A stretch of DNA of 64,000 bases, from NCBI GenBank assembly GCA_905220665.1, contig CAJNAR010000150.1, positions 186,001 through 250,000 of the forward strand, given 5' to 3'. This document shows positions 9,444 to 60,060 of the stretch, one piece after another. The translations under genes were made by a program, and so were the position numbers. The notes below the pieces were generated by a model. That model was not told the DNA's origin, searched no databases, and saw only the letters and a program-made list of their open reading frames with translations. The DNA is from Albugo candida. Taxonomy: Eukaryota; Oomycota; Peronosporomycetes; Albuginales; Albuginaceae. Within the stretch, counting starts at the first letter, position 1; every line of letters starts with the position of its first letter.

Positions 9444-12400
9444 TCAATCTAACGTGCCTCTCAAAATCACTTGCTCTTGTTCTCCTTGCCGTATGACTAC
9501 CTTACCCAAATGCATTGCATTTTCGCCGTGTGCTTTTAGTAGGTCAGTCACTTGGACAGCATTTTCGGGTGCGACTAATAAGACCATCCCGATACCGCAA
9601 TTGAATGTTCGAGCGAGCTCTTCTTGACTCAAATTGGCTGTCTCTCGTATCCATTTGAAGAGAGGTGAAAGTGTCCAGCGAGAACAGTCGAGCTCTACGG
9701 CTAGAGACTTTTCCAGTACACGAGGAATGTTTTCTAGCAACCCACCGCCTGTGATATGCGCGAAAGCATGTACCAATCGTTGTCGGATCAATGGTAGCAG
9801 ATGCTTCACATAAATTCTCGTTGGTTTCATCAGCTCTTCGCCAAGTGTTTTACTTGAACTTGGGAACGGGCATGGGTCTGAGTAATTGAGACCAACCATT
9901 TCGACTAGTTTGCGTACGAGAGAGTAGCCATTCGAGTGTACGCCAGAAGAGGCGAGACCAAGCACAAGAAAGCCTTCTTGAACCCGGCGAGGAAGAATAT
10001 CTGGCTTTCGTACAGCACCGACACAGAATCCAGCAAGATCGTAGTCCTTACCATGATACATTGACGGCATTTCTGCAGTCTCACCACCAACTAGACTGCA
10101 ACCCGATTGGAGACAGCCTTCAGCGATACCTTTGACTACTTGTGCGGCCTCTTCGACCTCAAGTTTACCACATGCATAGTAGTCCAAGAAAAACAGAGGC
10201 TCTGCCCCTTGCACAAGCAGATCATTGACACACATCGCAACGAGATCTATACCGATTGTGTCATGCATCTTCGTTTCTGTTGCGATACGAAGTTTCGTTC
10301 CTACTCCATCAGTACAAGCAACGAGAACTGTATCGCTGCTATATCCAGCAGCGCTCAAGTCAAATAACCCACCAAAACCACCAAGATCTGCATCACAACC
10401 AGCCCGAATGGTCGACTTGCAAAATGGTTTTATCAGTTTCACGAGCTTGTTCCCTGCTTCAATATCAACACCAGCCGTCGCATAAGTTATCATTCCCTTC
10501 TCTTCAAGCATTGGGCGACACATTCCGGTCTGAAATAACTTTATCGCGTGCAAAAAAGCTTTGCCTTCAAGCGCCTGTACACGAGCTTTAAGTAACTCGG
10601 ATGAATCGTCCGGATATACAGGACATCTCATCTGAACCACAATTGGTCCAGCATCGACTTGTTCTGTAACAAAATGGATAGTGCATCCACTTTCTGATTT
10701 ACGAGCATCTAACACTGCTTGGTGGACAGCCAAATCCATACCCCCTGCAAACGCGGGAAGTAATGAGGGATGTACATTCAGGACCTTGCCTTTCCATTGT
10801 TTGCAGAATTTCCCAGATAATATTCGCATGTACCCGATCAAGAGTACCAAATCAACTTTTTTAGCTTCTAAAACGTGCGATACTTCGTCATCAAAGTCCT
10901 CTCGAGATTTCCCTACACATGATAGATGCACTGCTTCAATATTTTGTGACTTGGCACGTTCCAGTATCACTGCTGATGCCTTGTTGCTGATAACTATTTG
11001 AATGCTTGCTGCGAGTTGCCCAGTCTGAATAGCATCTATAATTGGTTGCATGCTACTTCCACGTGTTGAGCCTAGTACAGCAATTCTGATAGGTTTCGCG
11101 GTGTATAGAAGTCCCTTAAGGCCAATGTCAGAGCGGTATTGTTTCCCCTTAAACTCAACCTTTCTACTTCTTGCATATGCACGAAGGATTGCGCTTTCCA
11201 GATTGGACGCTAGGGCACTCACAGCCAGGACGCGACCACCAGACGTGACGATGTTTCCACTTACTTGATCAATAGAAGTACCAGCATGAAAAATGACCAC
11301 GTCATTATCGTTCCCTTGTTTTAATCCTGTAATACTTTCACCTTTCGAATAACTATTCGGATACCCACCAGAAGCTAATACAACCGCTGCCGCAGCGCTG
11401 TTACGCCAAGCTACAAGAGAAGGATCCAGCTGGCCTTGTACACATGCTTGCATAACTTCGAAAAGGTCGCTTTGTAAGAGTGGTAAAAGTACTTGGGTCT
11501 CCGGATCACCAAATCTGCAATTGAATTCTAAAACTCTTGGCCCGACCGGAGTCAGAATGAAGCCTGGGTATAAAACACCCACATAAGGCATTCCTTCCTT
11601 TTTCATCGATAAAATTACTCGTTCGATAATTTGCACACATTCGACTTCAAGTGCTCGTGTGAGACATGGGGCCGGACAAAAGACTCCCATTCCACCGGTG
11701 TTGGGACCTTGATCATCGTCGAATACACGTTTGTGATCTTGAACACCTGGCATGGTTACCACATGCTCCCCATCGCTAAATGCCAATAAGGAGACTTCTT
11801 CACCTGTCAGAAATTCTTCCACCACAACTTCGTCACCTGCATCACCAAAAACTTTGTCTACCATGATTTCACGCAGTGCCGAATGAGCTTCAATCTTGGA
11901 GTTCGGGATCACGACTCCTTTACCAGCAGCAATTCCTGATGCTTTGATAACGACACTATGATTGACTTTATCAAGGTACTCTTTGGCCTCGTAATAATCA
12001 GTAAAGTTTTGATACTGCGCTGTCGGAATGCTATTACGTTGCATAAAGTCTTTGGCGAAAGCCTTGGATGCCTCCAATTGCGCTGCCTTGGCACTTGGGC
12101 CGAAAGCCAAGATTCCAACGGCATTCATTTTATCTGCTAGTCCGGCGACAAGTGGTGCCTCTGGACCAATCACGCATAATGAAATATTCTTCTCAACAGC
12201 AAATTTAACCAGTCTTTCGTGTTCATGAATTGAGATATTCACATTCGTAACATCGATATCTGACGCCATTGCAGTCCCGGCGTTCCCAGGTGCAACGTAA
12301 ATGTTTCCTGTTGACACTGATTGGGATAATTTCCATGCGATGGCATGTTCTCTCCCTCCATTTCCAACGACAAGGACATCATGAACTTTAAGATTCTCAT

Positions 12401-12890
12401 CCGCGATCGCAATGGAAATAGCTTGGTCCATATCGGCAAATGCTCTGAATGCTGATTCTGCATAGTGCTTATTTTCCTGTTTCGAAAACGTTAATCGACC
12501 ATCTTTAGCAATCTTAGTAGGCACGACATCAAATTCGTTTGGGTCCAACATCACAGTAATTTGCTGGTGATTCCACGCAGCAGTACGTAAAAAAGCGCAT
12601 GATCCATTCATCCATGCATCAATCATCTTGTAATCTTCTTTTTTTACACATTTGATGGCTTGAAACTCGGCGAGAACCAATTCAATTCGATCAGATAGTA
12701 AAATACCAACATCAGTTGGGTTTTGCACAGAAATATGCGGGACTTCTGCAGCAACTAGAGCTTGTTCGATGGAATGAGAGAGAAGAACAGCAATTCGAAT
12801 TTGGTTTTCGCACAGCTTTTTCGCGACTTCGATAAGTTTGGGCGACGCATTTACACCACAAAGCACTGCAATGGCGGTCGATTCGGACAT
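9444..12890 (-). CDS. multidomain purine synthesis enzyme: IMPCH-like + GARS + GART + AIRS
   Basis: Intronless, 1148 residues from ATG at 12890. Residues 1-170 resemble the IMP cyclohydrolase half of PurH: LLRAAAKNH-like LRTAAWNH at 101-108, followed by ITVMLDPNEFD and an AF-x-YD-AIS-like helix (AFADMDQAISIAI). The catalytic GGRVKTLHP segment of PurH is absent. Residues about 171-596 are glycinamide ribonucleotide synthetase (VVGNGGREHAIAWKL, KASGIAAGKGVV, EFNCRFGDPETQ). Residues about 599-793 are GAR transformylase, with catalytic N705, H707 (NVHPSLLPAF) and D746 (QVDAGPIV). Residues about 800-1148 are AIR synthetase (CTDGVGTKL, GGETAEMP). So steps 2, 3 and 5 of de novo purine synthesis sit on one chain in the order PurD-PurN-PurM, unlike the animal order PurD-PurM-PurN. 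Cytosolic. Family calls for the three enzymes are firm; the N-terminal call is a motif-level inference. Confidence 0.95.
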   Translation of the reverse strand: MSESTAIAVLCGVNASPKLIEVAKKLCENQIRIAVLLSHSIEQALVAAEVPHISVQNPTDVGILLSDRIELVLAEFQAIKCVKKEDYKMIDAWMNGSCAFLRTAAWNHQQITVMLDPNEFDVVPTKIAKDGRLTFSKQENKHYAESAFRAFADMDQAISIAIADENLKVHDVLVVGNGGREHAIAWKLSQSVSTGNIYVAPGNAGTAMASDIDVTNVNISIHEHERLVKFAVEKNISLCVIGPEAPLVAGLADKMNAVGILAFGPSAKAAQLEASKAFAKDFMQRNSIPTAQYQNFTDYYEAKEYLDKVNHSVVIKASGIAAGKGVVIPNSKIEAHSALREIMVDKVFGDAGDEVVVEEFLTGEEVSLLAFSDGEHVVTMPGVQDHKRVFDDDQGPNTGGMGVFCPAPCLTRALEVECVQIIERVILSMKKEGMPYVGVLYPGFILTPVGPRVLEFNCRFGDPETQVLLPLLQSDLFEVMQACVQGQLDPSLVAWRNSAAAAVVLASGGYPNSYSKGESITGLKQGNDNDVVIFHAGTSIDQVSGNIVTSGGRVLAVSALASNLESAILRAYARSRKVEFKGKQYRSDIGLKGLLYTAKPIRIAVLGSTRGSSMQPIIDAIQTGQLAASIQIVISNKASAVILERAKSQNIEAVHLSCVGKSREDFDDEVSHVLEAKKVDLVLLIGYMRILSGKFCKQWKGKVLNVHPSLLPAFAGGMDLAVHQAVLDARKSESGCTIHFVTEQVDAGPIVVQMRCPVYPDDSSELLKARVQALEGKAFLHAIKLFQTGMCRPMLEEKGMITYATAGVDIEAGNKLVKLIKPFCKSTIRAGCDADLGGFGGLFDLSAAGYSSDTVLVACTDGVGTKLRIATETKMHDTIGIDLVAMCVNDLLVQGAEPLFFLDYYACGKLEVEEAAQVVKGIAEGCLQSGCSLVGGETAEMPSMYHGKDYDLAGFCVGAVRKPDILPRRVQEGFLVLGLASSGVHSNGYSLVRKLVEMVGLNYSDPCPFPSSSKTLGEELMKPTRIYVKHLLPLIRQRLVHAFAHITGGGLLENIPRVLEKSLAVELDCSRWTLSPLFKWIRETANLSQEELARTFNCGIGMVLLVAPENAVQVTDLLKAHGENAMHLGKVVIRQGEQEQVILRGTLD

Positions 12891-26766: not shown

Positions 26767-26831
26767 TCTTTTTGAGATCGAAAGAAAACAAGAACTCGAA
26801 CAAATGATTGGCTTAGATTCTTCCTTATGAC

Positions 26832-28645
26832 CTAAAGTCCTCCATCAAAATCTCGACTACCTGTAAATTCTCTGCTCAATATATCTCCGACACCCTTTGG
26901 AGATTCTACATCGTGATATGCCTCACTTTCAATCTCACGCAAGATTTCCTCCCTCGACAAGACGTGAAGATCGGTTTTTGTGGAAGAAGATGATTCGCTA
27001 TCGTCCTCCTACATTCATGTATTTAGTGGGACTTCGACAATTGGATCGGAAAGAGGTCCCAACCTGCGGCAATAACACAGACGGAAGCGTTTGTGGAATG
27101 CTCATGAATCTCGTTGTAGAAGGATTGGCTTGTGAGCTTGCTACAAAATGATCCCATGACTCTCTGTGTACTACCTCGTCTGGCGGCTTTGGCGCTGTCC
27201 TCTCTTCTGCTAAATTCGACTTTGGAAAAATTGGAAATGGTGGAGGAGGCGGTAACGCGGTATTCTTCGCATTTAATAGCTTCGCTCCATTGCTCAAGGA
27301 GACTTCGGCCAAAGCTGTTTCAGATTGGTTTTCGCTGAGATGAAGCTTCTTGAGCGTACTAGCACCATCGTTGCCCGGATGATCCAAGTCGGTGGAATTG
27401 CGATTGGAAGCATTGTCCGCCCAAAACGCTGTACCCGCACGTAAAATTCCATCATTTTCAACAGACTGTGCGGCTTGAACTGCATCCTCATGAGCTTTTT
27501 CGACTCTTGATAACCAAACCTTCTTCTCCGAAGCGGGCAAGCCAATGAATTGCTCTTTTGTGACACCACGAAATCCTTTAAAATCAACCTCACTCGTTTC
27601 TGCTTGATTCGTTGGTGATGCATAGGACCTTTCATGTCGTAGCTTTGGTCGTTTTCCAATATCTTCAGCTGATTTCTGACGTCGTATGTTTTCCTGCCAG
27701 TCTCGGAACTCTTTAAGTGTCCTTCGTCGCTCTTCATGCTACGATCGATATAGGCTACTCAGACAGCTTCTGAGAACAAAGGCAAAAGTTGAGACCTCTT
27801 TTAAGACGAATGATTTCCTAGCTTCCAATTCCGCTTCCCTTCCCCCAATCTGCCAAGCCTCAACCGCGGCTCGTTCGACAGGAAATACCGGACGATCCAA
27901 GAACGCCAAGTCTGGAATGGCAGCAAGAAACGTTTTGCGGAATAACCTTGTTTGCGACACGATTGGATTCCCTGTGATACGTAGTGACCTCAGGTTTGGT
28001 ATGGAGGCCACAACTTCGAGTACTTTAGCTCCTTCTAGTCGATTATGACTGACATCAAGACTTTGTAGTGCACTACAAGCGACTAAAGTGACCAAACTAT
28101 TGCCATTCTCGAGACAATTCCGGGATATATCGAGCGTTTGCAAGTTGGATAACTTTTCAAGTCCAGAAACCGTTTTGATGCGATTGTCACAAAGACTTAG
28201 TGTACGAAGATCAGATAGACACTCGAGGTTTTCTATGCACTCAATGAGATTCTTTCCCAAATACAAACATCTCAACTGGGTGAGGGGATGGAGGTTCTCA
28301 ATCTTGCAAAGTCCGTTCGACTCCAGCCAGAGCGCCTTCAGGTTATGATATGGTTCAAGCCCTTCGATCTTCTGGAAGCCATGAAAATGTGCATATCTAT
28401 CAGAGCAAATTTTATATTACTTGTAGAGTACAAGTAGAGTTCATTTCAGCCTACAGAGAATCATTCAATTCAGGTGTCTCGTAGCCAGCACTTTCAATAC
28501 AAAGCTGTCTCAAAGTCTCAGCATCCATGACTGGAACCCTTCCTTTTCTATTTTCACGAAAGCGGTCGCGTTCTCGCTGACGAAAGTGATCATATGTTTG
28601 GATTGTTTCTGAAGATACATCAAATTGACGGGAGGATATCGGCAT
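26832..28645 (-). CDS. DNAAF1: DNAAF1/LRRC50/ODA7-like dynein assembly factor (left-arm copy)
   Basis: Four exons on the minus strand: 28645-28455, 28396-27796, 27738-27064 and 27008-26832 (547 residues). The family start LRQLCIESAGYETPELND is followed by HFHGFQKIEGLEPYHNLKAL and six leucine-rich repeats (for example LRTLSLCDNRIKTVSGLEKL). The cap has the diagnostic FLDRPVFPVERAAVEAWQIG. The C-terminal half is a charged helix, then a Pro-rich disordered tail ending DFDGGL. DNAAF1 helps preassemble axonemal dynein arms in the cytoplasm, so the organism should have motile flagella. The exon model was set on the right-arm copy and transfers base for base. This copy is intact. Confidence 0.92.
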
Positions 28646-28764
28646 GAGAAAAGAAGTGGACGATTTTGACGAAACGTCACGGGTCCTGTTTCTCAAGAAT
28701 TAACCAAAGGTCGATAATGACATTATGAGAAAGCTGATTACTGAGCTGTTAGCCATTAATACAG

Positions 28765-30700
28765 TCACATTTTTAAAATTTTGAACTCGTCACGAAATTG
28801 CCGCAAATCGCGCGATTCTGTTGCTTGAACCAAATCGAATCGTTCCATGCATGTGAAACAGATTCTCAGATAGCTCCAGATATGATCTGCTTGTTCGTTC
28901 AGTGATAAAGCTTGTAGATAGCAATTTGCAGCGCTTTTGTAATTTCCGAGATTCGCATGACTGATCCCCAAGTTTTGCCATCCCCGCGCATAACGAGGCT
29001 TTATTTCCAATGCACGGAGGTAAGCTGGAATTGCCTCTGTAGAATGCGACGAGTTTGCTAAAGTAGCACCAAGCTTATTCCATAGCGAGTGCTCATCCGG
29101 TCGACGCTGGGCCGCGAATCGGAAATTCTGAAGTGCGGCATCGTAGTCTTTGGAAACACTGTAGAGTACTCCAAGAACAACGTGGATATCTGCATCTTCT
29201 GAATCATGATTTTGTGCATGTAACATAAACTGCATGACTTGATCCATAAGCGAGCCATCGCTGTATTCATCGTCACGTACTTCAAGACCATGAAACTTTG
29301 GATTATGTTTCACCCAGCTTTTAAGAGCTCTTAGCGCACCTTGCGAATCAGATTCATTCACAAGACTGACTCCGAGTGCAAGCAATGCGTCGACGTTATA
29401 AGGATCTTCTTCAACGGCTCGTTCCAAGCACTTTATTGCGCACTTATCCTCGTCATTTTCAGCATGTGACTCCCCTAGCATTCGCCAGGCTTCACTGTTT
29501 TCTGGATGTTGCTGAACTTCTGCCTCAAAAGCGTAAATTGCTTCCGCTAAGTGACCTGACTTGTATAGCCGAACGCCTCGTTCAAAGTTTCCACTTTGGT
29601 TCAGAAAAGGGTTGTCAGATTTGTAGATATACTGCGAGCCTTCGTTAGCTGAGAAGTCGCCCCACGCATCCTCAAAAACATCCGTGCTTTGTGCATCTTT
29701 CAATGCTTTCTCCCAAAGTGTTTCCTAAAGAAAAGAATGCTTAGATATTCAAGGTTTAAAGAATTGCTGAATGGAAGATATTTTGCCATACCAAACTATC
29801 TGGCTGTTGGGAATTCCACGCATCCTCAAGTCTCTGGGATTCCACATCCACTCGTTCAGCATCTACCCATGCTTTGTGGAATCGGCTCTCTTGTTCTAGT
29901 AAGACTGCTGATTCGTCAATGGTATCCCGCCAGGCTGATTCGCATGTATCATACTGCTGTAACGAACTCTGGTTCCAAACGTTATTCATTCTCTTGTTCT
30001 GACTCAATTCATCTAGATCGACTGTGCCTTCTCCTATCTGACTCATAAAGTGCGCAAATTGACTATTTTGAAATTTGGAACTTCTATTCTGTCCCAAAGT
30101 TTCCGCAATAGAGTTCGCTGTTTGCATTGTTGCAGCCCTCTCGTCGATTGGTACATTCATTTCTTGTGAGGCGATCCAAGACTCTTCCATCTTTTCTGCA
30201 TGTTTGACAGAGGCCTGCGTTTGTTGCCACGCCAATTCATGCTGCTGTGAATTCGTACATGATACTCTAGATTCATTCATTTTCAGATTTTGGAATTCAC
30301 TGACCCAACAATTTTGGAATTGAAAAGGTTGGTTCATAGACGGTGGAACATTGACAATTGCTTGCATTTTTGATTCTTGGAAAGCTGCTTCCATTCTTCC
30401 GAATGATTCCAATGAATGATGACATAACGATCCATTCATATATGCATTTCTTTCCAATTTCTCCATCTCCAATTGCTTCATTCGATGTTCGTGACCTGAA
30501 ATTCTCACATGCTGTGTGTGTTGTACGGGATGATTTGTATTCTGTTGGACTATGACTGGTGTATCGCTAGCAATTGCATTGATATGGAACGCTTTTGATT
30601 GTAATACATTGTTGATCGCTTTTGTAAGCGGGTTTTGGGCGGACACAGTTCCATCCACGCTGCATCCAGTCCCTTGCACGAGTTTGTGCAGCACATCCAT
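28765..30700 (-). CDS. PEX5: PEX5-like peroxisomal targeting signal 1 receptor (left-arm copy)
   Basis: Two exons on the minus strand, 30700-29792 and 29724-28765, 622 residues (human about 639). The N-terminus MDVLHKLVQGTGCSVDG has the conserved early cysteine used for monoubiquitination and recycling. The first half contains several pentapeptide-like aromatic motifs (CWVSEF, AWRDT, VWNQSS, DAWGDF) that bind Pex13/Pex14. The second half has TPR repeats (GVRLYKSGHLAEAIYAFEAE, EAWRMLGESHAENDEDKCAI, GWQNLGISHANLGNYKSAAN) that form the PTS1 pocket. It cycles between cytosol and peroxisome. The intron (GTATGG...TTTAG) is 67 nt. The copy is intact and nearly identical to the right-arm copy. Confidence 0.93.
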
Positions 30701-30931
30701 AGTCTTCTGATCTATCACTGCGTTTACTATCAGCGCCAGTACGGTACCGGTAGGTCATGTTGTAGGGCTATCAAGGACAAAGATCAGACTCACATCGATC
30801 TAGTGACTTTTGTTCTAATGGCACTCGGCTCGACTCAGCGCTCGTACTTGTATCGAGTCAATACCATGCTTTACTAGTCTTTGGTGATAATTAGTAGCTG
30901 ATCAATACTCGTCGTTGAATTGTTCAACTAG

Positions 30932-33900
30932 CTACAGTTTGTTGTGTAAAGTGATCAAAAGACTAGTTTCTATCATTTCTGCACATTCGTCGACCTCCTT
31001 CAAATGCTTTCGATTGATTATTATCTTCTCGTACATTGTCTGTACATTGTCTGTAAGGATTCTGTTACCGAATCATTGTGATCATTTTGATGCTGGACAA
31101 GGATCTGTGAATGCTTCGCAATCAATGTTCTCATTAGATTTTGGCTAAACATTTGACGTTTTTGTAATGAATCGGCTTCTTCGACTTCATGTTGTGGTCG
31201 TATGTCACAAATTTCTCTGGTTTTCTCTAAGGATGATAAAAGTTCTGGGTTATCATTCTGTTCACCAGCCTCGGAAACCTTCTCTCGACAACTTGAGTAG
31301 TTTCGTCGAACTGAATCCGACTTCATATCTTCTGCTGTATGAACTCGTACACATGATTCAGAGCCGGAAGCTGTAGGATGTGGATCACTTCGAAGCAGAC
31401 AAATGATACTGTCTTGTGGATTCTTGGCCTTCTGGATCCGGTCTTTGAATTGTGGTTCACCTCTGTCGCTATTTTGAGTCTCATTCGTTTCCCAATGAGT
31501 TCCGTCCGGATGATATAGCTCGGATGCTCTCCTATGCTCACTTTCACTAACCATTTTGCTGCATTGGACTGAGGAAATCGTTCCAGATTTACTTAAGATA
31601 CTTTCAAGCTGTGCTAAAAAGTCTCGTGGACGGAGAGGAACATCTCGTGAAGAATCAGGAACCACTCCGGCCATCCATCTCCCTCTGATGAGTGCAATAG
31701 CATCGGATGAGCCTTCCATCTCATCACAGCGTAAGGGAAAAAGAATACCTTGGGCGCTCTCCTTCCCCGTCGTATCAAATTGTGTATGTTCGATGGTAGA
31801 ATTCCTTAGCGGATTACGTAAAATCTTATGGATATCCTTCTGGGATTTGAATTCATCAGTTCTTTCAACTCGAAGAAGCTTGATCCTTTTGTGAAAAGGC
31901 AAAGCGCTCATTCTTGTACACTTTCTCGCTTTCGCCTGCATTCTATTGGCTTTGAGATCTCTTGTTGCTTGCTCGCTAGTCGATGCATACAAGCTGACCA
32001 GATCGTGCAATCGGCTAAAAGCAGAGCTGGTGTCGCCTTTACCATTGCGATTAAAACTCTGTGTAACCTCTTTGTCGGTGTTGAAGCTTAAAGGCTTCAT
32101 CTGATTGCAAACTGTGGGTGTCAAGTCTTGCCTCGATTGGATTACCGATGCCAAGTCACGAAACTCGTTCATAAATAACTCAGAAGTATCAAGTCTATCC
32201 GAAGTAGACAATGCTCTACGAGATAACACATCCTCTTTTGGAAAACCACAGGAGGGCATGTTGGTTACAGAAGAAAGACATTGGCTTGTGCTGGTGATAG
32301 CTGGCGCTTCTTTCTCAAACTTATATGGCGGACTTATTGGGAACATCGTGACTATCACAAGCTTTTGAAGTTGCACATTTATCGAACAAAACATCAGAGA
32401 GTCAATTTCATCTCGCACTTGATCCATTGTCAACGTTTTCGAAAATTGCGAGAGTGAATGAGCATACAAAGACTGCTGCAAAGACTTTCTCAAAATTTCC
32501 AACCTGTACTGCTCTTCTTTGATCGGGATGGAGAAAGTATCCAAGCTTGCTTTCACTCGATCGCATAGGTTGTCATATCGCTTCAATAGTTCTACTTCTG
32601 ATAGCGTCTGTGGTAGAGCCCAAGCAATTCCAGTTCGTACCTTCTCCGCGTCATGTCGCAAACCTCTTTCAAAAAGCTGGAGCTGTAATTCCAAGATGTC
32701 TTTCCTTCTTTTCTTTGACGCTAACGGATATATGGGGCCCCATTCAATCGATGTGGTGACATTCATATTGGCCAGACATGGCCATTTTGACCTGTCGATT
32801 GAATGCCATGAAGCTTCAGGTGCGTTCTTCATCCTCAAGTGGCAATCACGTTCAAAACGACTGGAAATCTGAAGGCAATACGCTGTTTTTTTACGCATCC
32901 AGATAGTCCATAAAGCAACGCCCAATGATCTCATAGTCCGAAAAATAGTGTAAAGACTACTTGTATGTGCCAAGCATGGCAATTCCAGCACGTTTCTCTG
33001 AGTTTCTTCTGATCCAAGACTTTTGTCTATATAAACGAGATGATGCTGGAAGCTGTGGTCCGTACTATCGATAGTTTTCCATAGATCTCTATACTGAACC
33101 CATTTGTCGTACGCAAAATGGTTTTGTCGAACTTGGGAGTGTTTCCCATTAAACCGGACCAATTGAAAACATTCAAGAACGAGAATCGCCCTTACATACC
33201 GTGCCGTCAAACCAGAGTACTGGGATAGAATTTTTGATAACAAGCCGAAATGCCACGCAATTGATTCAATGCGCTCCAGCAAGCTCTTTTCAAGATCCTG
33301 TTCCTTAGATGACATTTTCCAAAGCAATTTACAGTTTGCTGACTCTGTAACGCTTTTCTTCTTACTTTCTAATACAAAGAGATTGATGATTCGTTGTCGA
33401 AAGTTGCTATAGTTGATTTTAAGATTGCGCTTGATTATATTCCCACCCCAAGTTGTTCTATTCTGATCTTGGGCGGTATCCCAATCAGGTACACTGAGAT
33501 CAGAGATAGTTAGACTGGCATCTAAAATTGAAGCCAATTCATTCACGTGACCTTCACATATCTGTATATGAATAGCAATTCCGTCGCTTTCGGTTTGTAT
33601 TTGACGTTCGATTTTATCGCTGTGTAACGACGCGATCAAACGAAGCATTGTATCTCGATCCTTCCAACCAGTTTCAGAATTGGTACGTTGAAGTAGATGA
33701 CCGATGAGATACTTCAGCATTCCAGCTGTAGCTGCTAATGAGACAGCCATCTCAATGTCGCATTTTGAAGTCGCTGAATTTGAAGGTAAATTTCGATGTA
33801 CGAGCATATCTGGTGGCTTGATTTTGTAAAGCAATCGTCAATGCTTCCTATGTTTTCAAGCATGATTAAGCTGATGAAATGAGAGAGCCCAACTGAAGAC

Positions 33901-34265
33901 GGTAATGTAATCGGTGATCGTAAAATACAGCTCATCATAGCATATGACACAAGTAGAGATGTGAGTCGATCTTCTGCTGCTTCCTCTTCGTCAGTTATGA
34001 GGTTGTCGACATCGGAATTCTGTATCATGGAATCTCTACGCATTCGGATCAATCTCTGCTTCGCATACTTCGCTTCCATCAATAATGTATCATAATCGTT
34101 TATTTGTATAGAGCGAAGTAATTTATCATACTGCTGCGAAATCACACCTGTGCGCTGCTTGAGCACCAGTCTGACGATTATCGGTAAAAGGGATTTCAGA
34201 ACTGGTTGTGCATTTTGCTGCTTCATAAATGTATCAGCTTGTGAAGAGTCACTGGAAGCATCCAT
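30932..34265 (-). pseudogene. large unknown gene, frameshifted (left-arm copy)
   Basis: Counterpart of the intact 1107-residue gene at 52353-55676. On the minus strand the frame is open from 34265 to 33735, then shifts. The T-run at 33822-33825 is one base shorter than the A-run of the right copy (52793-52797), which loses the frame after CFTK. The following 937-codon frame is open until near its end, where an 11-nt tandem duplication (gtacattgtct at 31031-31041 and 31042-31052) shifts the frame again, replacing about 29 C-terminal residues with RQCTRR. The net +10 bases explains the change of coordinate sum between the arms from 86608 to 86618. Either the copy is dead, or one of the two lesions is an assembly error; both would have to be. 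Confidence 0.8.
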
Positions 34266-34650
34266 AAGCGATTTTGACCTTCCGTATCCAATCCAATGGC
34301 ACTCAATGATCGAGTCAACGATTAGTATCAGATCAGAACGCGTAGTACACAGTAAGCTTATCGTGGGCGTCGCGCCAACTGATTCGCCTGCTAACCCGCT
34401 TATGAAGACTCCTACTAAAGTAGATGCTGATTCTATGTTATTAAAGACGTCACGAGAGAAGAGTATGATCTATACTTGATCAATACTTATTGCATAATGA
34501 TGTGTAAGGAATCGCGTTGTCCAGGCGATTACAAAGCACTGCAAACATCAGAGACATATCTCAAAAAATTTGCATCTTTAGAATGATATACATTCGTTGT
34601 TTGTGTATTGTGTTGAGACTCGCTATTCCATGTTCCAGCATTCCTATGAC
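34266..34650. other. upstream region of the left-arm unknown gene
   Basis: About 380 bases between the frameshifted gene and the decayed outer gene. It is closely similar to 51970-52352 in the other arm and should hold the original promoter of the large unknown gene. No element was identified. Confidence 0.35.
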
Positions 34651-34659
34651 TGCATTACT

Positions 34660-35490
34660 CTAAACTCGGATCAACTTTTCGAAAAGAGTCAAGAGTTCCG
34701 GTTCCATACCATGAGTGATATAATGCTTAGTTGGAGTTCCATTCTGAAGTTCAAACTGATTCTTTCGGTCAACAACAACGTATCCAGACTGATAATGTAG
34801 CCAGTCCTTCAGTTCCTCTCCTTGTGATAGAAGGATTCTTGTAGAATGCCCTTAGTATTGTCTCCTTCTGCTACTAGGGTTGATTGAGGTCAGCCACCAT
34901 TGCACTCATTTCCCGAAAATGTGATCACCTGAAATACGGGACAGCTATGAGCCTTCTTAAAGCGTGAGTGATTCCCATGACATGGATGGTTGCTAGGCCT
35001 TGTCTTGAAACATTTCGATTTGGTCCTTCCATCCCTCGGAAAGCTTGCAACATAAGTCAGGCTTGTTGTAGGATGATATTTTTTAACACAACGCTTGCCT
35101 GTGACTGAGAATTTTCGAAGCTCTTTGATGACGAGAGGCGGTTCCTGATCACTCACTTCCAATAGCACAAAACTCGTCCTGATAAAAAAGACGATCAGGT
35201 TGGTGTTGAGATCGTCCAAAATACATTTACTACCATAAGTGTAGCCTTATACCGATCAGCCAGGCAGAATACTATCGCCACGTAAGAGCACCAAGCAGTA
35301 CTCGAAGCTGGCTTGCAACCTCGTGACGGGCGAACTAGCTACCCTACACAGCTAATACTTGGCTTGTATTCGGTCTGATGCCGGGTGCTCCCGAGTCATT
35401 CATACATACAGGCGATTACGATCCAGAGAATAAATTCACAAAAAACAAGACGCATACGAATTTCTGATGACCTCATTTTCTGCATAAAGC
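34660..35490 (-). pseudogene. decayed outer gene of the left arm, possibly once secreted
   Basis: Reading the minus strand from about 35468, an ATG opens MRSSEIRMRLVFCEFILWIV, which looks like a signal peptide but stops soon after. A 109-codon frame at 35219-34890 gives LIVFFIRTSFVLLEVSDQEP, VASFPRDGRTKSKCFKT and CPVFQ. After a GT...AG-like gap another frame reads AEGDNTKGILQESFYHKE, and after a frame change LKDWLHYQSGYVVVDRKNQF to a stop at 34660. The order of these pieces is kept in the other arm. The frame changes are not explained by plausible introns, so I call a pseudogene. The family is unknown. Confidence 0.5.
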
Positions 35491-39894: not shown

Positions 39895-42800
39895 TCAGTG
39901 GCACATATAGCTTTCAGCTGCAATGACATGCTCAACATGCGATTTTGCTGACCAACTACGAACATAAGCTGCAAACACAATCAGCTGTCGTATGAACCAT
40001 AACAATATTACGACTGAATTGATTGTAATAAATGCATCGCCAATGCCGTATCGAGTAGATGTGCTCATGTTCGTTGTGCTCAAAAACGCAAAAGCAAGAC
40101 TGTGATTTATAATCATCAAAGTTTCCAAAATATAAATAGCTTTGACCATAAGCGCATCGGCGTATGGATTAAAGGAGAAAACTGCTATAAAATATGACAA
40201 CCGCAACAACATGACTGCCACCATTTGACCGGGGTCGTTGTCGAAAAATCCGACACAGATTCCCAATGTTATCTGAAATACACCAATGATGATAAAAAAC
40301 ATCCGACTACGATATGTCAATTCACTGTACAGACTTCCCCATAATGCCAACATATTATCCTCGCGAAGGTCGGTCTCAGTAGCATGCATAATGACATAGC
40401 CGGATATAATCAATCCTCCAATACATACAACTAGCACGAGTGCTATTGCCACAAATAGAGCAGGATAGATTTCTCCTGCTATGTATTCCATCGACATTTC
40501 AAAAGAAGCGTACATGCTGATCGGAAAAAGCGAACAATACCAAAACAAGATGCACAAGCCAGCCGTACGAATGGATATTCTTCGATAGGGGGAATTGGAC
40601 GTTTGCATGAACTTGGCTTCTTTGTCAGAATGGTATTTGGCGCACAGATTGAAAAGGCAGAATGCCACGAGTAGTGTCGCAAAGACAATCGAGAAGCCAA
40701 TCAGAGCCTCGTAGAGAATTTTGTCTTCATGTATTGCTAAACGATCCCCGAATGAGACGATGCCACCCAATATCAGCTGTTGCAAGCGTCGAGTAATATG
40801 GCCTCTATTCAGGCCCAAGTCTGATTGGATTAAGAGCCCAGTCCAAGCAAAAGAGTCGGTGTATTCCCATACAAAGTAAGGTGTTTTCAAGAGTAGGAGC
40901 TGAGACACCGAGCTCATTTGTTGAAGATATCCAATATAGTAGATCAATTCCCACGAGTTCGGTGCCCAAAAGGCATTCTGCCAGCACAAAGAGCGATCCG
41001 TTAAAACAAAATGGAAAAATAACAAGAATGCAACCGTTATACCAGCGAAGGTAGAGGCTGCATACTTGATAACCTTTTGGATCATTCGTTCGCTCTGCGA
41101 CAGCTCGCTCGGTAGTCCGTCATCAGTGGGAAATCGATTGCGTCCCCCAATTACAATGACCTCTGGATTTATACCTTCCGTCTGAGCTTTTTTTATAAGT
41201 GGTGTACCACGCACATACATACGCAAAGAGGGTGAACTTGATTCTTGTGCTGGTGCGCTCACTGTCGTCTTGATGTCTAGAACCGTGACCTCAGCTTTGT
41301 CTCTTGTTTTAACGCGGTTCGGCAATGACTCCGTTACTAGCGGATTTTCCGCTTTGCTTGCATTATACAAAATCACATCACGCTGATTTGCACTCTGAAT
41401 CGCTGGTGGTTTCCTCAGCCTCAGATTGAGATGTGCTGAGCTCGACGTACTGGACTCAATCGCAACCTTGGGCATTATTCCAGTTGTATTATTTTGACTC
41501 CTTGCCTCATGTGGAGGCTGGGTGGTTTCGTCATCGCCATACGAGTCTTGTGTATCGACGATCAGACGTGAGTTGCTCGGAAGCTCTTCAACGCTTGGCG
41601 TAGGTTTTGAGTTCAGAATCTCTGGCAGACCAGACTCTGTTTCCAAGCTGTTCAAAGGTTGGATTTTGCCACTTTCCCTAGTCAGTGTGTTTGCTTCCAT
41701 ATCAATGAGTGTGGATGATGGGTTCGATACGTTCAAAATAATATTTTCTGATACCGTATTATCAGCTGCATCCCGAAAGGGAGAGATCACCGCAGTTTTA
41801 GCTGTTGATGCATTATCCAATGTTGGATTTGGAGCTAGATTGACTGGATTCGAGCCAAGTTTTCCATCTAGTACTATGTTGCCGAGGATCAAATTGTCCG
41901 CATCTACCGAAGCGTCCCTCTCATCAAAGCCTTCTGAATGGTTACCGTTATTCGTGTTTGGCAGAGGAGATCGTGTTGCGGGCCAATCTGGATTCTGAAG
42001 ATTTGATCCATCTGACCCTATTGATAACAAACTCGGCTTTTGAATTTGCGGTTCGGTCGGATTTCTTGCTTTGCTTTCGAAAGGGTGCGCTGCCGTTTCC
42101 ACGGGTTCTGGTCCAGAGATTAAATCTTCAATTAAATTGCCCGTTCCTTTTATTGCGCGCTGATTTTGGTCGTTATGGTCAGTAATCACAGGTAACTCTT
42201 TCTCACGCGGAAGTACCTCTGCCACATAAGAAATTGAAACTGCTGGTGTAGTTGACACGCTGGATGATATTGGGGAAGGAAGCAAAGGTATGGGCGGCGT
42301 CGGTGAAGTAATGATACCAGATAGGATGGACCTTCTTTCATTACTAGAGCCAGCATCTACTTCCTGAGATTCGATGTTCTTGTCTATCGAATTCGAACTT
42401 GACTTTGTCGGTGATATTGACGTTTCAAGTGGGATTGTAGGAGTCTGCTCGTGTATCCCATAATACAGGCCTTGAATGGGATTGGCACGTGGCGGCGAAG
42501 ACGAAGTTGATTTTATCGTTGACTGAGGAGGTTTACCGAGCGATGGTATTGCATCAGGCACATCTAAGAGTGATTTCGTCGGATCAGATGACAAAGCGGA
42601 TATGTACGAAGATACTGACTGCTCAGTAGGTGAATTGATGACTGGAGCTATACTGGTACCCAACAATTTTTTTGTCGTTTGCGCGGGACTCGACGTGAGT
42701 TCATTTATAGAATTAGGTTCTGTGGCTGTATTTATTGTATGACTTTGCTCTGTATTTTCTGTTCTTCCTGAATATTTCTGGCTTGCATTGCTAAATGATG

Positions 42801-43329
42801 ACTCGGAATGTGTCTCTATCGGCGTGTTACTCAGATATGTTTTGAGCGGTGTGATGCTAGTGGTGATGCTTTCTGGTGGATTTTCGATCAATTGAGGTAC
42901 CACGCTACCCAATGGCGACTTTTTTACAGTGTCAGAAATTACTCCCAATTGTACCACAGGGTCTTCTTCAATCTGATTTCTGGGCCCAACTTCATTGGCA
43001 GTGGTGTAGTCCAGCGTGGTCGAAGATCCATTATTAGGTGCCGGAATATCTTGCGTTATTTCATTCGCCTCTGGGTGCTTCAATAACTCATTGGGTTTGA
43101 TGTTTGGGATAGACGGCTGTTCTGGGACAGTTCTCTCCGTAGCCTTTTCGGTCTCGTCATTATATGATTTTGGAAACGAAGAATCAGGAGGACCAAGAAG
43201 ATTTAACGAGCTCGGTTCTTCGACTCTCTCACTGTTTTCGTCTATAAAGTCTAAAAGAGCAACCCTGCCGTGTACGAAACGTGCTGCATAATATATCTGA
43301 TGGCAAAGAAGCCACAAGACATGATTCAT
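39895..43329 (-). CDS. TRP/Flc-like multi-pass membrane protein with long Ser/Pro-rich N-terminal region
   Basis: Intronless frame of 1144 residues on the minus strand. The first about 25 residues are moderately hydrophobic (HVLWLLCHQIYYAARFVHG) and may be a signal or anchor. Residues about 35-740 are low complexity, rich in Ser, Thr, Pro and Asn, as in a cell-wall-facing or glycosylated stalk. The last 400 residues hold about eight or nine membrane helices, for example FAGITVAFLLFFHFVL, LIGFSIVFATLLVAFCLF, ALFVAIALVLVVCIGGLIIS, FFIIIGVFQITLGICVGFF and INSVVILLWFIRQLIVFAAY. Spacing and the motif LRLSYFIAVFSFNPYADA resemble the TRP-like domain of fungal Flc and related protist proteins. Possible role: ion or FAD transport or surface sensing. 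The family assignment is tentative. Confidence 0.75.
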   Translation of the reverse strand: MNHVLWLLCHQIYYAARFVHGRVALLDFIDENSERVEEPSSLNLLGPPDSSFPKSYNDETEKATERTVPEQPSIPNIKPNELLKHPEANEITQDIPAPNNGSSTTLDYTTANEVGPRNQIEEDPVVQLGVISDTVKKSPLGSVVPQLIENPPESITTSITPLKTYLSNTPIETHSESSFSNASQKYSGRTENTEQSHTINTATEPNSINELTSSPAQTTKKLLGTSIAPVINSPTEQSVSSYISALSSDPTKSLLDVPDAIPSLGKPPQSTIKSTSSSPPRANPIQGLYYGIHEQTPTIPLETSISPTKSSSNSIDKNIESQEVDAGSSNERRSILSGIITSPTPPIPLLPSPISSSVSTTPAVSISYVAEVLPREKELPVITDHNDQNQRAIKGTGNLIEDLISGPEPVETAAHPFESKARNPTEPQIQKPSLLSIGSDGSNLQNPDWPATRSPLPNTNNGNHSEGFDERDASVDADNLILGNIVLDGKLGSNPVNLAPNPTLDNASTAKTAVISPFRDAADNTVSENIILNVSNPSSTLIDMEANTLTRESGKIQPLNSLETESGLPEILNSKPTPSVEELPSNSRLIVDTQDSYGDDETTQPPHEARSQNNTTGIMPKVAIESSTSSSAHLNLRLRKPPAIQSANQRDVILYNASKAENPLVTESLPNRVKTRDKAEVTVLDIKTTVSAPAQESSSPSLRMYVRGTPLIKKAQTEGINPEVIVIGGRNRFPTDDGLPSELSQSERMIQKVIKYAASTFAGITVAFLLFFHFVLTDRSLCWQNAFWAPNSWELIYYIGYLQQMSSVSQLLLLKTPYFVWEYTDSFAWTGLLIQSDLGLNRGHITRRLQQLILGGIVSFGDRLAIHEDKILYEALIGFSIVFATLLVAFCLFNLCAKYHSDKEAKFMQTSNSPYRRISIRTAGLCILFWYCSLFPISMYASFEMSMEYIAGEIYPALFVAIALVLVVCIGGLIISGYVIMHATETDLREDNMLALWGSLYSELTYRSRMFFIIIGVFQITLGICVGFFDNDPGQMVAVMLLRLSYFIAVFSFNPYADALMVKAIYILETLMIINHSLAFAFLSTTNMSTSTRYGIGDAFITINSVVILLWFIRQLIVFAAYVRSWSAKSHVEHVIAAESYMCH

Positions 43330-51009: not shown

Positions 51010-51961
51010 AATTCGATCCACCAGCTATATGCCGAAGATGAGGCAATCAGCAGTTGTATCCGTCTTGTATTTGTGAATTTATTTCCTGCCTCTTAATCGC
51101 TGAAATGTGCAAATACTTCCATCGAGATAAGATGCCATTTCAGTGCGAAATGATGATACGAAGATTGATTTATGACTCGGAAGCGCCCGTTATCAGGACG
51201 GATGCAAGCTAAGCATTAGCGGTTGTAAGCCAGATTCGAGTATCTACTAGATGTTTTTACGCCGCGATAGTATACTCCCTGGCTGTTGGTATACGGCTAC
51301 ACTTATGGTTGTGTAAATGGCTTTTTTGGACGATCTTAAATGCATGAGCGCATGTATTTGCTGCTACAGCCCAAAATAACAACCTCATCGTCATTGCTCA
51401 TCAAAGAGTATTGCTGTCTGGGATATCATCCTAATAATTTTGACGTGAAGCAAGAGCAATGTCCATCAGGAAGATGTGCTGTTTGGAATCAAGTGATGGG
51501 GAACTACACCTCGTCATCAAAACGCTAAAATATGCCATCCAAACTTTATCATCCTAGAACAAGCCTGAATTATATATGGCATTTCGAGGGATGGAAGAAC
51601 CAGTTCGAAACTTTCAACACAAGGCCTAGCAACCACCTATTCACGGAAATCTCTCACGCTATAAGAAGGCTCACAGCTGTCCCGTATTTCAGGTGATCAC
51701 ATTTTCGGGAAAGGAGTGCAATGGTGGCTGATCTCAATCAACCCTAGTAGCAGAAGGAGACAATACTAAGGGCATTCGACAAGAATCCTTCTATCACAAG
51801 GATAGGAACTAAAGGATTGTCTATATTATCAGTCTGGATACGTTGTTGTTGACCGGAAGAATCAGTTTGAACTTCAGAATGGAACTCCAACTAAGCATTA
51901 TATCACTGGTGGTATGGAACCGGAACTCTTGACTGTTTTCGAAAAGTTGATCCGAGTTTAG
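51010..51961 (+). pseudogene. decayed outer gene of the right arm
   Basis: Counterpart of the relic at 34660-35490. Shared phrases appear in the same order: cgtcttgt-ttgtgaatttat near 51060, atttatgactcgg near 51170, ggctacacttatgg near 51293, ctcgtcatcaaa near 51507, cgagggatggaag near 51585, and the terminal frame QSGYVVVDRKNQFELQNGTP ending at the TAG at 51959-51961. This copy has an extra stop just before that frame (aaggatag), an early stop after ttttttggacgatctt, and extra sequence near 51340-51430 relative to the left copy. It is more decayed than the left copy. Confidence 0.5.
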
Positions 51962-52352
51962 AGTAATGCAGTCATAGGAATGCTGGAACATGGAATAGCG
52001 AGTCTCAACACAATACACAAACAACGAATGTATATAATTCTAAAGATGCAAATTTTTTGAAATATGTCTCTGATGTTTGCAGTGCTTTGTAATCGCCTAG
52101 ACAACGCGATTCCTTACACATCATTATACAATAAGTATTCATCAACTATAGATCATACTCTTCTCGACGTCTTTCAATAACATAGAATCAGAATGGACTT
52201 TAGTAGCAGTCTTCATTAGCGGGTTAGCAGGCGAATCAGTTGGTGCGACGCCCACGATAAGCTTACTGTGTACTACGCGTTCTGATCTGATACTAAACGT
52301 TGACTCGATCATTGAGTGCCATTGGATCGGATACGGAAGGTCAAAATCGCTT

Positions 52353-55300
52353 ATGGATGCTTCCAGTGACTCTTCACAAGCTGATGCATTTATGGAGCAG
52401 CAAAACGCACAACCAGTTCTGAAATCCCTTTTACCGATAATCGTCAGACTGGTGCTCAAGCAGCGCACAGGTGTGATTTCGCAGCAGTATGATAAATTAC
52501 TTCACTCTATACAAATAAACGATTATTATACACTATTGATGGAAGCGAAATATGCGAAGCAGAGATTGACCCGAATGCAAAGAGATGCCATGATACAGAA
52601 TTCCGATGTCGACAACCTCATAACTGACGAAGAGGAAGCAGCAGAAGATCGACTCACATCTCTACTTGTGTCATATGCTATGATGAGCTGTATCTTACGA
52701 TCACCGATTACATTACCGTCTTCAGTTGGGCTCTCTCATTTCATCAGCTTAATCATGCTTGAAAACATAGGAAGCATTGACGATTGCTTTACAAAAATCA
52801 AGCCACCAGATATGCTCGTACATCGAAATTTACCTTCAAATTCCGCGACTTCAAAATGCGACATTGAGATGGCTGTCTCATTAGCAGCTACAGCTGGAAT
52901 GCTGAAGTATCTCATCGGTCATCTACTTCAACGTACCAATTCTGAAACTGGTTGGAAGGATCGAGATACAATGCTTCGTTTGATCGCGTCGGTACACAGC
53001 GATAAAATTGACCGTCAAATACAAACCGAAAGCGACGGAATTGCTATTCATATACAGATATGTGAAGGTCACGTGAATGAATTGGCTTCAATTTTAGATG
53101 CCAGTCTAACTATCTCTGATCTCAGTGTACCTGATTGGGATACCGCCCAAGATCAGAATAGAACAACTTGGGGTGAGAATATAATCAAGCGCACTCTTAA
53201 AATCAACTATAGCAACTTTCGACAACGAATCAATAATCTCTTTGTATTAGAAAGTAAGAAGAAAAGCGTTACAGGGTCAGCAAATTGTAAATTGCTCTGG
53301 AAAATCTCATCTAAGGAACAGGATCTCGAAAAGAGCTTGCTGGAGCGCATTGAATCAATTGCGTGGCATTTCGGCCTGTTATCAAAAATGCTATCCCAAT
53401 ACTCTGGTTTGACGGCACGGTATGTAAGGGCGATTCTCGTTCTTGAATGTTTTCAATTGGTCCGGTTTAATGGGAAACACTCCCAAGTTCGACAAAACCA
53501 TTTTGCGTACGACAAATGGGTTCAGTATAGAGATCTATGGCAAACTATCGATAGTACGGACCACAGCTTCCAGCGTCATCTCGTTTATATAGACAAAAGT
53601 CTTGGATCACAAGAAATTCAGAGAAACGTGCTGGAATTGCCATGCTTGGCACATACAAGTAGTCTTTACACTATTTTTCGGACTATGAGATCATTGGGCG
53701 TTGCTTTATGGACTATCTGGATGCGTAAAAAAACAGCGTATTGCCTTCAGATTTCCAGTCGTTTTGAACGTGATTGCCACTTGAGGATGAAGAACGCACC
53801 TGAAGCTTCATGGCATTCAATCGACAGGTCAAAATGGCCATGTCTGGCCAATATGAATGTCACCACATCGATTGAATGGGGCCCCATATATCCGTTAGCG
53901 TCAAAGAAAAGAAGGAAAGACATCTTGGAATTACAGCTCCAGCTTTTTGAAAGAGGTTTGCGACATGACGCGGAGAAGGTACGAACTGGAATTGCTTGGG
54001 CTCTACCACAGACGCTATCAGAAGTAGAACTATTGAAGCGATATGACAACCTATGCGATCGAGTGAAAGCAAGCTTGGATACTTTCTCCATCCCGATCAA
54101 AGAAGAGCAGTACAGGTTGGAAATTTTGAGAAAGTCTTTGCAGCAGTCTTTGTATGCTCATTTAATCTCGCAATTTTCGAAAACGTTGACAATGGATCAA
54201 GTGCGAGATGAAATTGACTCTCTGATGTTTTGTTCGATAAATGTGCAACTTCAAAAGCTTGTGATAGTCACGATGTTCCCAATAAGTCCGCCATATAAGT
54301 TTGAGAAAGAAGCGCCAGCTATCACCAGCACAAGCCAATGTCTTTCTTCTGTAACCAACATGCCCTCCTGTGGTTTTCCAAAAGAGGATGTGTTATCTCG
54401 TAGAGCATTGTCTACTTCGGATAGACTTGATACTTCTGAGTTATTTATGAACGAGTTTCGTGACTTGGCATCGGTAATCCAATCGAGGCAAGACTTGACA
54501 CCCACAGTTTGCGATCAGATGAAGCCTTTAAGCTTCAACACCGACAAAGACGTTACACAGAGTTTGAATCGCAATGGTAAAGGCGACACCAGCTCTGCTT
54601 TTCGCCGATTGCACGATCTGGTCAGCTTGTATGCATCGACTAGCGAGCAAGCAACAAGAGATCTCAAAGCCAATAGAATGCAGGTGAAAGCGAGAAAGTG
54701 TACAAGAATGAGCGCTTTGCCTATTCACAAAAGGATCAAGCTTCTTCGAGTTAAAAGAACTGATGAATTCAAATCCCAGAAGTATATCCATAACATTTCA
54801 CATGATCCGCTACGAAATCCTATTATCGAACATACACAATTTGATACGACGGAGAAGGAGCGCGCCCAAAGTATTCTTTTTCCTTTGCGTTGTGATGAGA
54901 TGGAAGGCTCATCCGATGCTATTGCACTCATCAGAGGGAGATGGATGGCCGGAGTGGTTCCTGATTCTTCACGAGATGTTCCTCTCCGACCACGAGACTT
55001 TTTAGCACACCTTGAAAGTATCTTAAGTAAATCTGGAACGATTTCCTCAGTCCAATGCAGCGAAATGATTAGTGAAAATGAGCATAGGAGAGCATCCGAG
55101 CTATATCATCCGGACGGAACTCATTGGGAAACGAATGAGACTCAAAATACAGACAGAGGTGAACCACAATTCAAAGACCGGATCCAGGAGGCCAAGAATC
55201 CACAAGACAGTATCATTTTTCTGCTTCGAAGTGATCCACATCCTACAGCTTCCAGCTCTGAATCATGTGTACGAGATCATACAGCAGAAGATATGAAGTC

Positions 55301-55676
55301 GGATTCACTTCGACGAAACTACTCAAGTTGTCGAGAGAAAGTTTCCGAGGCTGGTGAACAGAATGATAACCCAGAACTTTTATCATCCTTAGAGAAAACC
55401 AGAGAAATTTGTGACATACGACCACAACATGAAGTCGAAGAAGCCGATTCATTACAAAAACGTCAAATGTTTAGTCAAAATCTAATGAGAACATTGATTG
55501 CGAAGCATTCACAGATCCTTGTCCAGCAGCAAAATGATCACAATGATTCGGTAACAGAATCCTTACAGACAATGTACGAGAAAATAATAATCAATCGAAA
55601 GCATTTGAAGGAGGTCGACGAATGTGCGGAAATGGTAGAAACTAGTCTTTTGATCACTTTACACAACAAACTGTAG
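52353..55676 (+). CDS. large protein of unknown function (right-arm, intact copy)
   Basis: Uninterrupted frame of 1107 residues from ATG to TAG. I do not recognise a family. The first 600 residues are mostly helical and moderately hydrophobic, for example VLKSLLPIIVRLVLKQRTGV, YAKQRLTRMQRDAMIQNS and ILELQLQLFERGLRHDAEKV, without membrane segments. The region GLTARYVRAILVLECFQLVR is the most protein-family-like. From about residue 690 the chain is Ser/Lys-rich and probably disordered, and the end is helical (ESLQTMYEKIIINRKHLKEV). It could be a scaffold protein. PEX5 follows 230 bp downstream on the same strand. The intact state of this copy next to a broken left copy suggests it is the functional one. 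Confidence 0.8.
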   Translation: MDASSDSSQADAFMEQQNAQPVLKSLLPIIVRLVLKQRTGVISQQYDKLLHSIQINDYYTLLMEAKYAKQRLTRMQRDAMIQNSDVDNLITDEEEAAEDRLTSLLVSYAMMSCILRSPITLPSSVGLSHFISLIMLENIGSIDDCFTKIKPPDMLVHRNLPSNSATSKCDIEMAVSLAATAGMLKYLIGHLLQRTNSETGWKDRDTMLRLIASVHSDKIDRQIQTESDGIAIHIQICEGHVNELASILDASLTISDLSVPDWDTAQDQNRTTWGENIIKRTLKINYSNFRQRINNLFVLESKKKSVTGSANCKLLWKISSKEQDLEKSLLERIESIAWHFGLLSKMLSQYSGLTARYVRAILVLECFQLVRFNGKHSQVRQNHFAYDKWVQYRDLWQTIDSTDHSFQRHLVYIDKSLGSQEIQRNVLELPCLAHTSSLYTIFRTMRSLGVALWTIWMRKKTAYCLQISSRFERDCHLRMKNAPEASWHSIDRSKWPCLANMNVTTSIEWGPIYPLASKKRRKDILELQLQLFERGLRHDAEKVRTGIAWALPQTLSEVELLKRYDNLCDRVKASLDTFSIPIKEEQYRLEILRKSLQQSLYAHLISQFSKTLTMDQVRDEIDSLMFCSINVQLQKLVIVTMFPISPPYKFEKEAPAITSTSQCLSSVTNMPSCGFPKEDVLSRRALSTSDRLDTSELFMNEFRDLASVIQSRQDLTPTVCDQMKPLSFNTDKDVTQSLNRNGKGDTSSAFRRLHDLVSLYASTSEQATRDLKANRMQVKARKCTRMSALPIHKRIKLLRVKRTDEFKSQKYIHNISHDPLRNPIIEHTQFDTTEKERAQSILFPLRCDEMEGSSDAIALIRGRWMAGVVPDSSRDVPLRPRDFLAHLESILSKSGTISSVQCSEMISENEHRRASELYHPDGTHWETNETQNTDRGEPQFKDRIQEAKNPQDSIIFLLRSDPHPTASSSESCVRDHTAEDMKSDSLRRNYSSCREKVSEAGEQNDNPELLSSLEKTREICDIRPQHEVEEADSLQKRQMFSQNLMRTLIAKHSQILVQQQNDHNDSVTESLQTMYEKIIINRKHLKEVDECAEMVETSLLITLHNKL

Positions 55677-55907
55677 CTAGTTAAACAATTCAACGACGAA
55701 TATTGATCAGCTACTAATTATCACCAAAGACTAGTAAAGCATGGTATTGACTCGATACAATTACGAGCGCTGAGTCGAGCCGAGTGTCATTAGAGCAAAA
55801 GTCACTAGATCGATGTGAGTCTGATCTTTGTCCTTGACAGCCCTACAACATGACCTACCGGTACCGTACTGGCGCTGATAGTAAACGCAGTGATAGATCA
55901 GAAGACT

Positions 55908-57843: not shown

Positions 57844-57962
57844 CTGTATTATTGGCTTACAGCTCAGTAATCAGCTTTCTCATAATGTCACTATCGACCT
57901 TTGGTTAATTCTTGAGAAATAGGACCCGTGACGTTTCGTCAAAATCGTCCACTTCTTTTCTC

Positions 57963-59776: not shown

Positions 59777-60060
59777 GTCGCTGGAAAGCAGCTTGGGCAT
59801 TCAAATTGTTCATTGACTCGATCTCGAATAGCATGTGTACCGCTGGTAGACTTGACGAATGCTTTGGAGCAAATGAGATTCTGGAAAGCTTCCGTGCCTA
59901 ACACCGTCAAATCCTCGATAGCATCAAGCGTGCGTAATTGTGAGATCGATAAATCACAATTTACAAAGCTATCAGCTATCACAAGAGAAAAGTCGCTTGA
60001 AAATAGAATAGAACTCTCACACCGTGTACCCGCGTTGCATCCAGCTTCCAGTCAAGTATA
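59777..60060 (+). pseudogene. decayed 5' end of a NOG1-like gene
   Basis: Immediately after the right DNAAF1 copy, in the place where the intact NOG1-like gene lies in the left arm. The frame at 59813-60061 contains EQMRFWKASV and FTKLSAITREKSL, matching NQMRFWKASV and LQKLSAATRKTSL in the intact gene, with a shared tcaagcgtgcg phrase between. The upstream 60 bases also align with the NOG1 leader (ttgttc...tcgatctc). No GTPase domain follows. Divergence is much greater than in the neighbouring DNAAF1 copy. Confidence 0.7.

Follow-up and report, generated by a model that had tools for sequence, protein, structure and literature searches.

What occupies the N-terminus of a purine-synthesis fusion protein in the oomycete Albugo candida, and why would it be kept there? 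The gene lies in a stretch of 64,000 nucleotides (contig CAJNAR010000150.1, positions 186,001 to 250,000; here called the window) of a 38.9-Mb assembly of 196 contigs, and had been read in an initial annotation as a degenerate IMP cyclohydrolase (IMPCH) domain fused, on one intronless chain, to three purine enzymes. We found a single uninterrupted minus-strand frame that runs from 12896 (GTG, 1150 amino acids, aa) or 12890 (ATG, 1148 aa) to 9444 and encodes GARS, then GART, then AIRS, in agreement with the fusion as annotated. Judging from sequence comparison and a predicted structure, residues 1-165 are almost certainly a catalytically dead domain of the IMPCH fold. The gene and its parts are:

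9444..12890, minus strand: intronless coding sequence of 1148 aa, degenerate IMPCH domain-GARS-GART-AIRS (open frame; start Met shared with the database protein P0001)
12396..12878, minus strand: predicted degenerate IMP-cyclohydrolase-fold domain (pseudoenzyme domain), residues 5-165 (PF01808, PRK00881 and TIGR00355 matches, hhalign, AF2 model, fold search)
12678..12683, minus strand: deletion point, codons 70/71, where about 32 PurH residues (TLHP...ID, after GRVK) are gone (combined alignment; hhalign gap in the same place)
12567..12590, minus strand: LRTAAWNH, residues 101-108, the counterpart of PurH LRxAAKNH, with Trp106 for the catalytic Lys (combined alignment)
11115..12377, minus strand: GARS (PurD) domain (TIGR00877, 534.9 bits, cut-off 288)
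10524..11087, minus strand: GART (PurN) domain (TIGR00639, 186.1 bits, cut-off 150.1)
9495..10490, minus strand: AIRS (PurM) domain (TIGR00878, 433.1 bits, cut-off 236.35)

Since the NCBIfam models for PurD, PurN and PurM all score above their curated cut-offs, the three enzymes look intact; a linker of about 5 residues joins the degenerate domain to GARS. The Albugo candida database protein P0001 shares 99% identity across the N-terminal region and has the same start Met. Translation beginning near residue 165, which the initial annotation had named as a possible objection, was not seen, the N-terminal residues being conserved in relatives from that same Met. That the fusion is transcribed as one mRNA is upheld in two relatives only, in which the region lies on the same transcript as GARS (P0104, with a partial domain, and P0106, with 146 residues before GARS); both were taken as transcript proteins from their MMETSP names, MMETSP sets being transcriptomes.

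Tested alone, the N-terminal 177 residues match PF01808 (E 2.2e-6, 27.8 bits, cut-off 25), the PurH model PRK00881 (E 2.4e-10) and PurH chains of the PDB (1g8m, E 1.5e-4). The PF01808 match is limited to model positions 1-59 of 311 and, within the full protein, reaches 24.7 bits, just below the cut-off; the domain also falls far below the full-protein NCBIfam cut-offs for PurH, as expected of a part. The match to the PurH IMPCH domain received a probability of 98.6% from hhalign, with the N-terminal Rossmann-like half aligned too, against at most 1.9% for five control domains taken from elsewhere in the same protein. With a purpose-built PurH IMPCH profile, the real domain scored 35.8 bits, whereas the top score among 2000 shuffles was 7.4, and a match by chance or composition was rejected on these shuffles and the five domain controls. 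The AF2 model of the domain (pLDDT 88.4) has the IMPCH fold by fold search and superposes on ATIC residues 4-200. Profile search and comparison of the predicted structure with PurH are thus both strong, and show a common origin with the IMPCH domain. The initial annotation had described a match to the second half only, a half-domain reading that we rejected: the N-terminal half aligns, the model covers ATIC 4-200, and the whole IMPCH domain matches. The C-terminal AICAR transformylase domain of PurH is missing from the fusion protein, and a complete PurH is encoded at a separate locus.

The catalytic residues were compared in a combined alignment of 25 PurH rows (the Albugo PurH and 24 of 30 bacterial PurH loci) and 38 fusion rows (37 relatives and the window sequence). 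Fusion rows were selected on the length of the sequence ahead of GARS (120 residues or more), not on a match; out of 120 proteins, 37 were kept, 78 had fewer than 120 such residues and five lacked a GARS motif (P0019, P0036, P0053, P0117, P0120). The group labelled Sapro comprises six Saprolegniales and P0026. Loss of the catalytic segment, as initially annotated, holds throughout: the PurH segment from the T of KTLHP onward, TLHP included, is missing in 38 of 38 fusion rows, a deletion of about 32 residues in Albugo PurH terms, between window residues 70 and 71. K66 is present in 25 of 25 PurH rows by construction, because only open reading frames (ORFs) with G[RS]VKTLHP were kept, and its column holds K in two of the ten distant rows, beside gaps where the alignment is unsure. 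The PurH loop STGGT is replaced, for example by CSPAV or LSHSI, and neither Gly is kept in any of the 38 fusion rows; nor does any fusion row have D in the D125 column (0/38) or Y in the Y104 column. At K137, the PurH rows have K (25/25) and the oomycete-type rows W (27/28) or A (1/28), with other residues or gaps, and no K, in the ten other fusion rows. The numbering, the catalytic roles of Tyr104, Asp125 and Lys137 and the count of four catalytic residues are those of ATIC. R102 (of LRxAA) and D155 (of YDAAI) are retained from PurH and are invariant in 35 of 35 rows of alignment A2 (A2 and A3 each hold 34 of the 120 proteins plus the window, A2 with P0119 and without P0035, A3 the reverse). 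The loss of the phosphate loop and catalytic residues argues against both catalysis and nucleotide binding at the old site; by the alignments, these residues are shown to have been lost in the rows examined.

One full PurH is present in the genome, at C156 (L001:970-2916; 648 residues; TIGR00355 550.2 bits, cut-off 528), and keeps GRVKTLHP and AAKNH, which answers whether a separate complete gene exists and led us to reject a decayed PurH replacing the working one. A search for related loci with the Albugo PurH returned three bacterial loci only, in which the match begins no earlier than query residue 225. The fusion is present a second time in the genome, on a 31.5-kb contig (C195:22000-31553, L012), with 98.7% DNA identity over 4.8 kb and nine amino-acid differences; this copy may be the other haplotype or else a duplicate.

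How widespread the architecture is was assessed with three queries. Window residues 1-175 found 5 proteins among 1321 candidates and a Phytophthora citrophthora protein found 17 among 7994 scored; all organism-named matches of these two N-terminal searches are oomycetes, in the genera Albugo, Phytophthora, Nothophytophthora, Peronospora, Bremia, Plasmopara, Peronosclerospora, Pythium and Globisporangium. A full-length Pythium oligandrum query gave 5306 proteins at E<=1e-100 among 7977 scored, and the best 120 listed (P0001-P0120) added Aphanomyces, Thraustotheca, Achlya, Saprolegnia and further N-terminally extended proteins. All of the 36 long-extension proteins (of 37) that were readable by motif scan, which missed at least one domain motif in 57 of the 120 proteins, are ordered GARS-GART-AIRS; such an extension occurs in none of 16 GARS-AIRS-GART proteins. 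Among 41 N-termini no shorter than 60 residues, 36 match the PurH profile at E<=1e-3, a small set in which P0051 and P0113 match neither this nor the oomycete profile at that threshold. Two proteins with fewer than 120 residues before GARS also match the PurH profile, over a partial domain (P0025 and P0104, the latter from the ochrophyte Octactis speculum). By these sequence matches the domain is common to oomycetes and, at least in part, an ochrophyte. It is an old, widespread architecture, not special to the Albugo gene and broader than first thought, and a local gene-model accident was rejected because of this spread. A single ancestral gain is plausible; on a tree of 36 of the 120 proteins the carrier label needs eight changes, against a mean of 9.0 after shuffling, and 138 of 500 shuffles needed no more, so that one versus several gains is not settled by the tree. 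P0022-P0024, without the domain, sit on short branches among oomycete carriers and look like truncated gene models.

Precomputed Pfam lists place PF01808 on 24 of the 37 long-extension proteins, so the domain is already visible in databases. The GARS-GART-AIRS fusion of Plasmopara halstedii (P0014) is named 'putative bifunctional purine biosynthesis protein PurH', probably because of its degenerate domain. Two models are unusual: P0025 (1464 residues) has two tandem GARS units followed by GART and AIRS behind a partial IMPCH-like N-terminus and may be an assembly or model artefact, and the 1596-residue P0030 of Aphanomyces astaci, with PF00249, PF12874 and PF16835 (Myb and zinc-finger-like) ahead of the fusion, is probably two genes merged by prediction.

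What the domain does is less certain than what it is. The degenerate fused domain of the initial annotation is borne out, and the regulatory or docking role proposed for it is still something we infer. From sequence conservation and structural models, we consider it an even bet that the domain serves the GARS-GART-AIRS protein as a structural or docking part without catalysis, which is the most likely of the readings considered, ahead of an allosteric role and then a passive remnant. A former IMPCH domain would have lost its active site, kept its fold and become fused to GARS; relatives of the domain form dimers in ATIC, and it may keep the multidomain enzyme together, either by associating with itself or by joining another protein, for instance the true PurH dimer, the cyclohydrolase reaction being left to the separate PurH. 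Thirteen positions are invariant in 26 oomycete-type rows (V9, R32, L36, P51, V72, G96, F100, R102, A105, G131, F148, F151, D155), and W93 and W106 each occur in 25 of the 26. In the full-chain model (pLDDT 79.9, pTM 0.60) the domain retains its secondary structure, parts of AIRS being poorly modelled, and helix 137-164 ends about 5 residues ahead of GARS strand 170-176, a closeness that suggests rigid coupling of the domain to GARS.

Several observations weigh against such a role. Albugo and Peronosporales/Pythiales share 41% identity in the domain and 69-73% in the enzymes, so that the domain evolves faster; it appears from these comparisons to be kept under looser constraint than the enzymes. 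Between the window and the C195 copy, the first 166 codons hold two changing and no silent differences and the remainder seven changing and 23 silent, differences too few for a test; purifying selection on the domain is thus not visible at that scale. Eleven of 47 GARS-GART-AIRS proteins have fewer than 120 residues before GARS, which means that some of these proteins can do without the domain, unless their gene models are too short. Within the distant group, the oomycete profile is the only one that P0042 and P0109 match at E<=1e-3, and P0119 matches neither profile well. Finally, a pTM of 0.60 leaves the packing between domains unfixed by the full-length model.

A more specific and rather doubtful form of the docking role would tie the two ends of the pathway together: a dead domain from the last step, attached for good to the multienzyme of steps 2, 3 and 5 when stramenopiles were young or still earlier, might dock PurH or mimic half of its dimer, building or regulating a purine-synthesis assembly.

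An allosteric sensor is, in our estimate, unlikely but the strongest alternative to a structural or docking part. A purine nucleotide bound by the domain would tune GARS or the whole enzyme, as does the MGS-fold domain of carbamoyl-phosphate synthetase; that domain is C-terminal, whereas the fusion domain is N-terminal. The STGGT glycines are kept in no fusion row, with no evident replacement, and PF02142 (MGS) has no match in the fusion protein at E up to 1, whereas its three matches in the genome are PurH and two other loci.

That the domain is a passive remnant, an old fusion left folded and drifting with no function, seems improbable to us. Its faster evolution relative to the three enzymes, the two changing and no silent codons between the genome copies and the occurrence of short forms are all in keeping with drift. 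However, Albugo through to Saprolegnia, and more distant rows as well, have retained both the frame and the domain, in which some positions do not vary; moreover, 27 of 28 oomycete-type rows carry Trp where PurH has the catalytic Lys. W93 and W106, as conserved new residues at the old site, could speak for the site having been remodelled to catalyse a new reaction. We regard this as very unlikely: most of the 13 invariant positions hold hydrophobic residues, Gly, Ala or Pro, nothing looks like a new polar active site, and R102 and D155 also occur in PurH, where they lie outside the four catalytic residues. Least credible of all is a gene-model artefact in which the true protein begins at GARS, as the database models P0022 and P0024 do, given a single ORF with no Met from residue 154 to the GARS start, conservation of the N-terminal protein sequence and its start, and transcript proteins of two relatives that carry the domain or part of it.

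A non-catalytic part of this sort is of a kind already known, in which a metabolic multienzyme includes a pseudoenzyme domain; it is not a new type of system. Relative to the IMPCH domain of PurH/ATIC, the fusion lacks about 32 residues including TLHP, the STGGT glycines, Tyr104, Asp125 and Lys137, and it is attached to GARS instead of an AICAR transformylase domain. ForH (PDB 6nko), which acts in formycin synthesis, is IMPCH-sized (about 190 residues) and a separate chain, whereas here the domain is fused. Vertebrate trifunctional GART has the same three enzymes on one chain in the order GARS-AIRS-GART, unlike the order GARS-GART-AIRS and the extra N-terminal domain found here; in the vertebrate and insect rows listed, wherever the GARS motif could be read, 2 to 19 residues precede it. 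The domains of the vertebrate enzyme are named in an excerpt of PMC10912719. In the open-access literature, to which the search was confined (subscription papers lying outside it), the excerpts of the matches listed contain no description of a degenerate-IMPCH-GARS-GART-AIRS architecture. Among these, the excerpted parts of a study of oomycete fusion proteins (PMC2705460) table a P. sojae 'AIR synthase related protein' and mention no IMP cyclohydrolase domain, and those of a study of diatom nucleotide metabolism (PMC6995639) make no mention of the fusion architecture.

Elsewhere in the window, an inverted duplication (26829-35078 and 51547-59779) spans 8.25 kb at 97.3% identity. Both arms hold a 312-aa ORF, whose scanned copy has TPR repeats, and a 320/325-aa ORF, whose scanned copy weakly matches the PEX18/PEX21 C-terminal region; this pair resembles pieces of a peroxisomal import receptor gene. 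They also hold a 937/1107-aa ORF, the 1107-aa copy of which matches nothing in Pfam. An ORF of 1144 aa at 39895-43329 has a C-terminal match to a TRP ion channel family (PF06011, E 6.9e-14).

It has long been asked what keeps the enzymes of purine synthesis together. A dead end-of-pathway domain on an early-pathway enzyme, kept across oomycetes and some other lineages, offers a test case for docking or regulation by pseudoenzymes. The domain is not present in the animal rows seen and, if it does link the two ends of the pathway, animals would manage the assembly without such a domain.
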